45,606 nt of DNA. Source: Patescibacteria group bacterium (GTDB taxonomy: Bacteria; Patescibacteriota; Dojkabacteria; JAKAPS01). The stretch lies in assembly GCA_025450075.1 (NCBI GenBank), contig JANWIC010000025.1, positions 1 to 45,606 of the forward strand, in the 5' to 3' direction. The notes beneath the pieces were generated by a model. That model did not search any database. It was not told the origin of the DNA and saw nothing but the letters and a program-made list of their open reading frames with translations. Shown here piece by piece: positions 5,331 through 10,222 of the stretch; positions within the stretch are counted from its first letter, which is position 1, and the number at the start of each line of letters is the position of its first letter. Both the position numbers and the translations under genes were made by a program.

Positions 5331-5456
5331 AGGATTTTAAAACCCTAAGATTATCCTATATTATTCTAAAAAAAATCAATACTTCTATTAGATATCTCAC
5401 AAGAGGACGGATGGATTAACAGCATATACAAGATATGCTATTATTATAACAATGCC

Positions 5457-5771
5457 ATGAAGAAAAGAAACACTATTAACAAAGAGATATTCCGTATATA
5501 TATGATCATTGCGATGATCATATATATCATATTTTTCCTGAGTATCAATAATTCTTTTTCCGGTCTAACTGATTTAGGTGGTATCATACAGCGTCAGATG
5601 GATAGGGTCATTTATCGTCCATATGGGACTGCATCCCCAATTTTTACTGATTTCATCATAACCCCAACTCCAAGTCCTTCTCGAAAACCTAGTCAAAATA
5701 ATCTTCAATCTGGTGTATCGAGAAGAGCAAATAGGGTGCCAATTCCAACACTTCAACCGTCAGATGATTAA
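5457..5771 (+). CDS. small single-TM protein with Pro/Ser/Thr-rich tail, first gene of redox operon
   Basis: TM helix IYMIIAMIIYIIFFLSI and TPTPSPSRKPS tail; overlaps the next gene. Confidence 0.65.
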   Translation: MKKRNTINKEIFRIYMIIAMIIYIIFFLSINNSFSGLTDLGGIIQRQMDRVIYRPYGTASPIFTDFIITPTPSPSRKPSQNNLQSGVSRRANRVPIPTLQPSDD

Positions 5772-6129
5772 AAAGAAGAAAACTATAATTACAATTGTTG
5801 GTTTTGCATTACTAGATGCAATCGTTATCATACTAGTATTCTTTTTCTTTATCCGCCATCCAGCATATTCTGTTCATGTAAGAATTAAACCGCCTTTAAA
5901 GATATATACAAGACAACAATTAGCTGCATATAATGGGGATGATCCATCGAAGCCTATATATATCGGGTTGGATGGTTATGTTTTTGATGTTTCAAAAAGC
6001 CCTGGAATATATGGTCTTGGTGGAGAATACCACAAGCTAGCCGGAACAGATACAACAAGTCCGTTGATGGAGATGTTTGGAGCTGCAACTGTCATGCGAA
6101 AATACTACGCTGTTGGAGTATTAAAATAA
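5764..6129 (+). CDS. membrane-anchored cytochrome b5-like heme protein (MAPR family)
   Basis: YTRQQLAAYNGDDPSKPIYIGLDGYVFDVSKSPGIYGLGGEYHKLAGTD matches the MAPR pattern; N-terminal TM; ATG overlaps the preceding stop (ATGATTAA). Confidence 0.85.
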   Translation: MIKKKKTIITIVGFALLDAIVIILVFFFFIRHPAYSVHVRIKPPLKIYTRQQLAAYNGDDPSKPIYIGLDGYVFDVSKSPGIYGLGGEYHKLAGTDTTSPLMEMFGAATVMRKYYAVGVLK

Positions 6130-6134
6130 AAGAA

Positions 6135-7427
6135 ATGCAAAAAATTATAGGTGTTACAAGTATATTTGTGCTGTGTTTTGTAACAATCGTCATTTGGGTT
6201 TTGGGAAAGGAAGTTATTCCAGTTATTTGGCTTACACCTCAGCGTTCAATAGCTGAGATAACTGGCCTCATTGGAACAATTCTTATTTCCTTAAGTTTTT
6301 TGTTTGCAACAAGAATGAAATGGATTGAGAACTTGTTTGGTGGTCTTGATGTAGTTTATCGAGTCCATCATATTATGGGAGGATTGGGGTTTTCATTCAT
6401 TTTGTATCATCCGGTTTTTCTTGTTATGGGAGTAATCCCAAATTTCACACTTGCACTTTCCTATGTCTTCATTTCAAGTAACATATCATATGATTTAGGT
6501 ATCCTATCTCTTTATAGCTTTATTATCCTACTAATGCTGACATTTTTTATCAGACTGCCGTATTCAACATGGAAGAAAACTCATGAATGGATGGGGATCC
6601 CTCTGCTTATTGGTGGAATCCATGTTCTGTTAGTCCAATCCGATACCTCATTAAATTTAGTTTTGAAATTATGGATCATGGGTTTTATTATCATGGGGCT
6701 CATATCATTTTTCTATGTCCGTTTCTTGTATGCTTTGCTTCCCGTAAAATATGCATATGTCATTGACCAGATTGCAATGGCAGCTGACAAAACTTTTAAA
6801 ATTGTCCTTAAACCTGAAATTCGAAAAATGATCCATAATCCAGGCCAATTCATTTATTTGGAAATCAAGGATTTGTTATGGTCAGAAGGAGAACGGCATC
6901 CGTTTTCTATTGCTTCGTATGCAGAAGATCATATCACCATCGGAGTAAAAGTATCGGGTGATTACACGACAAAACTTGAAGAAGTAAAAGCAGGACAAAA
7001 AGTAAATATATATGGCCCATATGGAAAATTTGGTGAAAAACTTATAGTAAAAGATGCAGATGAAATATGGATTGGTGCGGGGATAGGCATTACTCCGTTT
7101 CTTAGCATGCTGGAATACAAACGAATTCATAAACCACAGCTTCAAGTCTCACTCTTTTATTGCTTTTCATCCCCAGAAGATGCTGTCTATGACAATGAAT
7201 TACAAACATTAACAACACAAGCGCAGAATGTGACATATATTCCTTTTTGTTCTAAAGAAAAGGGACATATTACCGCGGGTGCTGTTGGTTATATATGTAA
7301 ATCTCTTTCAGATAAATACATCTTTTTATGTGGACCGAACAAAATGATGGAAGGTATAATAGAGCAATTTATTGATCTTGGTGTGAAACCAGACCATATC
7401 ATATTTGAAGATTTTAATGTCTTATGA
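6135..7427 (+). CDS. ferric reductase/NADPH oxidase-like flavocytochrome (FRD TM + FAD + NAD domains)
   Basis: TM His pairs (VYRVHHIMGGLGFSFILYHP; THEWMGIPLLIGGIHV), FAD motif RHPFSIAS, NAD-domain IGAGIGITPFLSML and FLCGPNKMMEG. Confidence 0.92.
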   Translation: MQKIIGVTSIFVLCFVTIVIWVLGKEVIPVIWLTPQRSIAEITGLIGTILISLSFLFATRMKWIENLFGGLDVVYRVHHIMGGLGFSFILYHPVFLVMGVIPNFTLALSYVFISSNISYDLGILSLYSFIILLMLTFFIRLPYSTWKKTHEWMGIPLLIGGIHVLLVQSDTSLNLVLKLWIMGFIIMGLISFFYVRFLYALLPVKYAYVIDQIAMAADKTFKIVLKPEIRKMIHNPGQFIYLEIKDLLWSEGERHPFSIASYAEDHITIGVKVSGDYTTKLEEVKAGQKVNIYGPYGKFGEKLIVKDADEIWIGAGIGITPFLSMLEYKRIHKPQLQVSLFYCFSSPEDAVYDNELQTLTTQAQNVTYIPFCSKEKGHITAGAVGYICKSLSDKYIFLCGPNKMMEGIIEQFIDLGVKPDHIIFEDFNVL

Positions 7428-7573
7428 AGCCATATATATCAAAGATCGCAGCATTATCACTTATTACCTTTGTTATTGTTACCTTGACGGTACTACTTAT
7501 GGCAAATATCAATGGAATTGTAGATGGCATTAGCGGTTTTTTTGTACATTTGTTTAATCTTTTTTATCATTAA
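7424..7573 (+). CDS. 49-aa single-TM protein
   Basis: MKPYISKIAALSLITFVIVTLTVLLMANINGIVDGISGFFVHLFNLFYH; starts in ATGA overlap with upstream gene, stops in TAATG overlap with downstream gene; not in ORF track. Confidence 0.75.
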   Translation: MKPYISKIAALSLITFVIVTLTVLLMANINGIVDGISGFFVHLFNLFYH

Positions 7574-8529
7574 TGAAACGAATACCGATAAAACGAAAAT
7601 ATATATTCTTTTCAATTCTCAATATTCTCTTTGTCGGAGGTGTACTTGTTTTAATTAACTTCCTGTATGGAAGAGGATATGCACAATCTACCTGTATAGT
7701 GACAATTAATGGAAGCCTATATAACATTACCTCTCTTCTTCCTGGAGGAGCTCATGATCACCAGGTGAATTCGGGTTATGCACCAGCTTTTCAATGCGGA
7801 GGAGATAATACGAAATTGTTCAATGGAGGACATGGTAATAATTATGGAAAGATTGCAGCGTTTTTAGTAACATCAACATCTACGCCAACGCCGACTCCGA
7901 CTACACAACTTACCTCTACACCTACATCAAACCCAACGAGTACTCCAGCTCCGACCTTAACTACTGGACCAACTAATACACCTGCTCCTACGCAAACAGT
8001 AGTACCTACCGGCAAAACAAATCCGACACCATCGATTCAGCCGACTTCAATATCTATCCAATCAACACCTGTGCCGACAGTTTCCATTCCATTGCCGACA
8101 AGTGTGGCTGTAAACCCACAAGCTCCTCAATTACCAGAAACATCAACTATTGCTATCCAATTCATTGATCCACAATATATACCTTATGGAAATATTACAG
8201 TAGATATTGTGTATAACCATTATGAATATACAATTCAAACTACGCAGGATGGATATATCCATGTCCCTGAAAATACATATATATGGCGCGCATCTATAGA
8301 TAATACTCAATCTCTGATAAATATCAGGGCTGTTGTATTATTGGGGTATAAAATTATGATAAGCAGGGGGGACGGCACAGTTGTGCAAGTTCTCGCATAT
8401 AATATGGCAGCTGCAGATGCGCTGTATCATTTTATGATCATTGCAGCAATTGTAACTGGAGTACTAGTCATAATGATGCTTACCGGAATATGCATGTTTT
8501 TGGTTAAAACTGGCAGGTTAAAGATTTAG
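7573..8529 (+). CDS. divergent cytochrome b5-like domain on a long Thr/Pro-rich linker, TM at both ends
   Basis: CIVTINGSLYNITSLLPGGAHDHQVNSGYAPAFQCGGDNTKLFNGGHGNNYGKIAAFLV resembles bacterial extracytoplasmic b5 domains; then ~75 aa of TPTPT-rich linker; C-terminal TM. Confidence 0.7.
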   Translation: MKRIPIKRKYIFFSILNILFVGGVLVLINFLYGRGYAQSTCIVTINGSLYNITSLLPGGAHDHQVNSGYAPAFQCGGDNTKLFNGGHGNNYGKIAAFLVTSTSTPTPTPTTQLTSTPTSNPTSTPAPTLTTGPTNTPAPTQTVVPTGKTNPTPSIQPTSISIQSTPVPTVSIPLPTSVAVNPQAPQLPETSTIAIQFIDPQYIPYGNITVDIVYNHYEYTIQTTQDGYIHVPENTYIWRASIDNTQSLINIRAVVLLGYKIMISRGDGTVVQVLAYNMAAADALYHFMIIAAIVTGVLVIMMLTGICMFLVKTGRLKI

Positions 8530-9049: not shown

Positions 9050-10222
9050 ATGGATAAAAGAACTACTGAACATGAGATAGTCTTACTTGCAGACCAGATT
9101 ATGCAAAATCACGAAATTCGCACAGAACTTCTTGAAATTGTAAAAGGAACTAATTATCGGTGGCACAACTTTATTAAAGAACTTCATGTCTTAGTAAAAA
9201 ATCAGGGAACAAATCAAAAAGAAGAAACCCCTTTTGATTTGTGGAAAAAGAAGGTAGTAAAAGTTTATCGCGATCTTTACGAATTAGAGCAGCGGGATAA
9301 TATCCAAAATATATTCATTAATATTGCAAAAGTTCTTCGCCATAAAAATACAAAAGACAAAGAAATTTATGAACTCATTCAGGCATTTGAAGAAGAAAGA
9401 CGCTTGACACTTTTCTCATTGGAATGGGATGATGCAAAGTTATTGAAATACTTAGTGAATGCTTTAGAATTAATGCAAGTACAGGAAGAGCCGGAAAGAA
9501 TATTGGGTTGCATTGATGAGGCATTAGCAAATCATCCAATAACAAGATTTGATGCCGGTTCACGAGTTACACAATTAACTGAAGCGTTTCAGTCCGGAGT
9601 AACAAAAATTCATTATGAACAGGCTGTCGCAGATAATGCAGAATTTATAGTAAAAAACGAAATCCATTGTATCACGACTCACGAAAATTGTGGTGCATCT
9701 GCACTTGTCTTTGCAACTAATATACAGCCGTTACTTCATGAGAAAGATTTTCCAACATATTTTCTCAGCCCTGATGAAATCGCCCGTAAATTTTCTTTGG
9801 ATACCATTTCATGTATTAATGATACTCATCCAAAATATGCAATACGACATGAATTTATCCAGGCAAGTGAAATGGACCGTCCAATTTATGAGCATATTGC
9901 AGCGGGAATTACTGTCGCTCCCGGAGAAGTTATCAATGCCATGTATGAGGCTAATCCGAAATATCCGTATACGTTTAATGTGGATACGCATTTCTCACTT
10001 GATATTGTGAAAATGAATATTGCCATTTCTTTAAGTATAGCATTTAGCGGACATGGAAGGTTAGATGAATATCTCAGACAACCATTTGTAATTGCAATTA
10101 TTGGAAATGATGAAAAACAGACTGAGGATTTAGCTTCATTAGCAGATATATGTATACAAACCTATTCGGATAAGCCGATAAAGGTAATAAAGACAACAAT
10201 ACCACAAGAATTTAAGAGTTAA
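9050..10222 (+). CDS. conserved hypothetical with carbonic-anhydrase-like HxxCG motif
   Basis: 390 aa; C-terminal half contains EIHCITTHENCGAS, reminiscent of the H-x2-C zinc motif of beta-CA; family otherwise not recognised. Confidence 0.6.
   Translation: MDKRTTEHEIVLLADQIMQNHEIRTELLEIVKGTNYRWHNFIKELHVLVKNQGTNQKEETPFDLWKKKVVKVYRDLYELEQRDNIQNIFINIAKVLRHKNTKDKEIYELIQAFEEERRLTLFSLEWDDAKLLKYLVNALELMQVQEEPERILGCIDEALANHPITRFDAGSRVTQLTEAFQSGVTKIHYEQAVADNAEFIVKNEIHCITTHENCGASALVFATNIQPLLHEKDFPTYFLSPDEIARKFSLDTISCINDTHPKYAIRHEFIQASEMDRPIYEHIAAGITVAPGEVINAMYEANPKYPYTFNVDTHFSLDIVKMNIAISLSIAFSGHGRLDEYLRQPFVIAIIGNDEKQTEDLASLADICIQTYSDKPIKVIKTTIPQEFKS

Follow-up and report, generated by a model that had tools for sequence, protein, structure and literature searches.

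The membrane redox locus at positions 5457–8529 of the window (the whole 45,606-nucleotide stretch analyzed here, from the 1.11 Mb, 93.5%-complete genome of a member of the Dojkabacteria (WS6, Patescibacteria)) is a Dojkabacteria copy, reduced and rearranged at its edges, of the CPR operon that couples the Tyr-ligated cytochrome cytb5MY to a putative ferric reductase, as that operon is summarized in PMC10093951. The gene set is real, conserved and already described; judged from sequence, it would function as a putative redox module. We regard it as moderately probable that the locus passes electrons from NAD(P)H outward to cytochrome b5 domains at the cell surface. The features of the locus are as follows:

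Possible promoter, 5416..5444, + strand: TTAACA-17-TATTAT with TG, just 5' of ORF A; weak.
ORF A, 5457–5771, + strand: 104 aa, N-terminal transmembrane (TM) helix and Pro/Thr-rich tail ending in PSDD.
ORF B, 5764–6129, + strand: 121 aa from the ATG at 5764; TM-anchored MAPR-type (Tyr-signature, cytb5MY-like) cytochrome b5.
ORF C, 6135–7427, + strand: 430 aa, FRD/NOX-like flavocytochrome.
ORF D, 7424–7573, + strand: 49 aa, single-TM peptide.
ORF E, 7573–8529, + strand: 318 aa; TM helix, short two-Cys b5-like domain (residues about 38–99), Thr/Pro-rich stalk (about 100–190), ~90-aa domain and C-terminal TM helix.

The original prediction had placed five genes on the + strand here, and re-reading ORFs A–E reproduced every boundary; ORF B possesses an alternative in-frame GTG at 5713. 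The junctions likewise read as proposed: A and B overlap at ATGATTAA, B and C are separated by a 5 nt gap, and the C/D and D/E junctions are ATGA and TAATG, respectively. Promoter-like sites are not in excess in the region, with 26 counted against 22.1 (sd 4.8) in shuffled sequence. Only B and C scored above the Pfam cut-off; A, D and E have no family over it, and Pfam and NCBIfam scans returned nothing useful for A or for the C-terminal part of E. Adjoining the operon is a 390-aa ORF (window 9050–10222), likewise without a Pfam family over cut-off.

The grouping of B, C and E is conserved in relatives. A search of gene neighborhoods, which had been proposed as a check on the original prediction, was performed in a phylum sample of 389 genomes and a class sample of 91 genomes and, with named contigs added, recovered the B-C-E triad in 11 genomes from several Patescibacteria groups: the window itself and loci L021, L022, L027, L056, L057, L058, L059, L071, L075 and L076. 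The prediction thus clearly survives its own refuting condition, a lack of conserved synteny in related genomes. The hosts include Dojkabacteria HKST-UBA11, WS6 GW2011_GWF2_39_15, BroJett019, a Paceibacterota bin and a Shapirobacteria bin. Matches to the B profile were detected in 17/389 phylum genomes, seven of them strong, and all seven strong matches adjoin an FRD, the gene run also holding an E-type b5; B was present in 4/91 class genomes, each time directly upstream of the FRD. The other ten phylum genomes, with weak B matches, were left out of the triad count; where their neighborhoods were fetched the FRD was not adjacent, bar one weak, distant match. Two Yonathbacteria loci in which B lies near a contig end (L068, L069) were also left out of scoring; the ORF that follows B in L069 does not encode an FRD. 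The set that the original prediction treated as a five-gene unit thus stands for B, C and E, which form a conserved core, but not for A and D, which are not conserved parts of it.

The recurrence of the B-C-E set in 11 genomes makes the grouping more than chance. A packing together of unrelated membrane genes might be expected in a small, dense genome, and the parts do occur apart as well; that explanation is contradicted by the synteny across different groups, and we reject it as extremely improbable. The association is asymmetric, with B tightly tied to C and E, and C and E also found without B. Many FRDs in the class genomes have no B. Strong E-type matches (E < 1e-15) were found in 11/389 phylum genomes, of which seven carry the triad, one (L110) has the FRD and E without B, and three (L111, L114, L115) have E far from any FRD; a second E is found elsewhere in G028 and G128 (L113 and L112, respectively). 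The parts are therefore separable. In a tree, the labels of triad FRDs were clustered, with several changes needed; the tree is poorly resolved and a single clade is not established. Two-Cys b5 copies without a nearby FRD (L111–L115) mostly possess a short TM anchor, with none evident in L115. At L059:4064-8864 (G109), two tandem FRD + E pairs flank B, and a further b5 protein precedes the whole array.

Protein C bears the complete architecture of a transmembrane flavocytochrome. Ferric-reductase, FAD and NAD domains were detected (PF01794, PF08022 and PF00175), the flavin and nucleotide motifs HPFSI, GAGIGITPF and LCGP are intact, and all four heme histidines are kept, as H78/H92 in TM3 and H150/H163 in TM5; their spacings of 14 and 13 residues are the same as those reported for NOX2. 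These histidines are kept in 12 orthologs, with the exception of one Gln in L058. The assignment as an FRD-type protein with FAD and NAD domains is thus borne out. The nearest solved structure is SpNOX (8qt6, E 4e-31, nearly full length), a transmembrane NAD(P)H oxidase producing reactive oxygen species (PMC11031084).

The SpNOX likeness raises a reading of C in terms of oxygen chemistry, in which C would make superoxide outside the cell or consume O2, and the b5 proteins would tune or buffer that activity. His-119 of NOX2 belongs to the NOX signature (PMC3591440); the equivalent position in C is L96, so the signature His is absent. Judged by alignment, SpNOX also lacks a His at this position, and L96 therefore does not decide the substrate of C. 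Gene neighborhoods in relatives lend the oxygen reading some substance: an Fe/Mn superoxide dismutase lies near the triads of L058 and L071, with L075 similar by sequence, L071 also has a glutaredoxin nearby, and MsrA and MsrB are encoded together with TspO upstream of the triad in L057. Yet no dismutase, MsrA/MsrB or glutaredoxin was seen beside the window copy, and a pure oxidase would need no two conserved b5 partners; we judge this reading improbable.

Protein B is a MAPR-type cytochrome b5, as originally proposed. The Pfam Cyt-b5 family was detected over cut-off (PF00173, E 9e-8), and a ten-member profile matched At2g24940 (1t0g, 6e-21) and PGRMC1 (4x8y, 7e-12) among PDB entries, and also the archaeal b5 structures 6nzx and 6vz6. 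A structural model of B (pLDDT 86.5) gave 1t0g, 1j03, 6nzx and 4x8y as its best Foldseek matches. Among relatives of B, Y83, Y89 and Y114 are invariant and K113 is nearly so; Y83 and Y89 align with both tyrosines of the PGRMC1 YGPEGPY motif. The heme of PGRMC1 has Tyr113 as its sole axial ligand, with its propionates held by bonds to Tyr107, Lys163 and Tyr164 (PMC4802085). These four positions are kept in B on a b5 fold that lacks the bis-His pair, and the heme of B is expected, by analogy, to be five-coordinate and Tyr-ligated as in PGRMC1. With this signature, B is no obvious simple electron carrier.

Protein E was proposed to join a b5-like domain to a Thr/Pro-rich stalk, and the b5-like sequence and fold were both recovered. 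Homologous domains in orthologous positions (L071, L110) pass the Pfam Cyt-b5 cut-off, the E-family profile matches solved b5 structures (best E 0.003), and the top PDB matches to the predicted fold are all cytochrome b5, at probability 0.99 but an E of only 0.047; together, these establish the b5-like domain as real. The family profile scores the window E at 1.4e-25, though that profile contained the window E itself. Model confidence within the b5 part has block means of 76–95, but only 50 at residues 61–70; the stalk and the domain that follows are poorly modeled. Members of the E family share the approximate motif C-I-V-T-I-x-G-x-x-Y-D-V-T-x-L-x-x-T-H-S-G-G-x-x-F-x-C-G-T-D-M...H-G, in which C41, C75 and H87 (the second His) are invariant. 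In the window E the first axial His is replaced by N66, and H61 and H63 lie in a 7-residue insert; this displacement makes heme binding by E uncertain. The L076 upstream copy likewise lacks the first axial His. In most relatives the order of E is TM, stalk and C-terminal b5, whereas in the window it is TM, b5, stalk, a domain without relatives and a second TM; no homologs of the C-terminal part were found in the 91 class genomes.

By positive-inside charge counts, A, B, D and E are each predicted to start on the cytoplasmic side, and E to end there as well; the margin for B is small, at +4 vs +3. The b5 domains are accordingly predicted to lie outside, in agreement with the original prediction. 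The invariant Cys pair of E, which may form a disulfide, together with these counts, fits an extracytoplasmic location.

Taken together, a model for outward electron transfer can be sketched. Cytosolic NAD(P)H would reduce FAD on C, electrons would cross the membrane via the two bis-His hemes of C, and they would be passed outside to TM-tethered, putatively heme-loaded domains: the MAPR-type B and the short two-Cys b5 of E. The stalked E could then pass electrons beyond the membrane, to a metal, oxygen, or an oxidized surface or host protein, which would endow the locus with a surface reductase activity. Three features stand against the electron-transfer reading: the PGRMC1-like Tyr heme in B, the displaced His in E, and the separability of the parts.

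A second rival starts from heme itself: B would bind scavenged ferric heme, and the FRD and the b5 domain of E would reduce it for release or import. ALAD is absent from 8/8 triad genomes, and none of the eight has an intact ferrochelatase, so heme is probably scavenged. Tyr ligation, which the signature of B recalls, is common among heme-capture proteins such as NEAT and HasA, and the heme-associated TSPO occurs in 5/8 triad genomes, in one of which (L057) it is near the triad. An inability to make heme is probably widespread among CPR bacteria in general, though, and is thus not specific to triad carriers; no heme transporter was recognized beside the operon, TSPO (PF03073) had no match in the window genome, which is 93.5% complete, and the FRD and E themselves require heme. 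We consider heme capture and reduction unlikely, and it is quite unlikely that the triad as a whole serves CPR bacteria that cannot make heme primarily to acquire it by reduction, after capture by B at the surface, and not to export electrons. If heme acquisition were its role, this would suggest that the PGRMC1 family's early task was to handle heme in concert with a membrane reductase. Also in favor of the heme reading, the sole PF00762 match in the window genome is a ferrochelatase-like stretch interrupted by in-frame stops, apparently the remains of a gene (L077:6588-6869, G000:C6:60587-60868).

The small proteins A and D stand outside the conserved core. Protein A occupies the slot that holds an anchor protein in several relatives, often with one or more b5 domains and an acidic tail, and the 4-nt overlap of D with C falls at the very site of the E start in most relatives; from position in the operon, our guess is that both are leftover anchors. 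Two specific identities gained no statistical support. The similarity of A to the b5-less anchor of L071 (L071:6594-6866) is not significant (shuffle 0.23), and a match of D to an E-type anchor without its b5 reached 5.9 bits, likewise not significant, since 9/162 control TM segments and 17/1000 shuffles attained that score. The upstream anchors at L021:5297-6187 and L022:4517-5395 each carry two different b5 domains, of the two-Cys and Cys..HHG..FPHP types, plus acidic tails.

These counts provide independent evidence that a flavocytochrome and a b5 of another kind accompany the CPR Tyr-type b5, and they describe a putative heme-based redox module retained in genomes of ~1–2 Mb without the heme-synthesis steps checked here. 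They also make a question testable: does a bacterial PGRMC1/MAPR relative receive or deliver electrons, or heme?

Comparison with known systems places the locus among several relatives. Protein C shares the FRD, FAD and NAD(P)H architecture and the four heme histidines with SpNOX (8qt6) and the FRD/NOX superfamily; SpNOX is described as a self-contained producer of reactive oxygen species, whereas the window FRD is tied to b5 partners. Protein B has the fold, the Y..GG.Y..LAG.D motif and the C-terminal KY of the MAPR proteins PGRMC1 (4x8y) and At2g24940 (1t0g); unlike these, it is bacterial, predicted to be extracytoplasmic, and shares its operon with an FRD. MsrQ-like flavinylated clusters likewise employ an FRD membrane protein, often with an NAD-binding domain, to feed an extracytosolic carrier, but there the carrier is an FMN-binding, ApbE-flavinylated protein, in place of the cytochrome b5 domains of the window; extracytosolic flavinylation is reported to be underrepresented in CPR (PMC8238504). 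Neither ApbE nor a protein with an FMN-binding domain turned up in Pfam scans of the five genes and the neighbors covered.

The closest counterpart is the CPR cytb5MY operon. The original prediction knew of no named system with this composition; on this point it is superseded, since the composition was already described for CPR by Tamarit et al. (bioRxiv 2021, doi 10.1101/2021.11.17.468889), as relayed in PMC10093951 (2023). According to that account, the operon comprises the Tyr-ligated cytb5MY, a putative ferric reductase, two other b5 proteins, TSPO and a two-component pair, and had earlier been called a possibly redox-related membrane complex. The window shares the Tyr-type MAPR-like b5, a further b5 and the putative ferric reductase, and each of these carries TM segments. 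In contrast to the operon so summarized, the window copy has a single other b5 (E), which is rearranged, and two small TM proteins in addition, A and D; TSPO was not found in its genome, neither TspO nor a response regulator was seen beside the window copy, and ORF reading recognized no adjacent two-component pair. Relatives come nearer to the summarized composition, with two further b5 proteins beside the triad in loci such as L021, L027 and L076, and a response regulator downstream of it in L022, L027 and L059, and by sequence also in L056. Because the source, in the account given in PMC10093951, describes a reconstructed ancestral operon, losses are to be expected in living copies, and in themselves they do not rule the reduced window locus out as a member.
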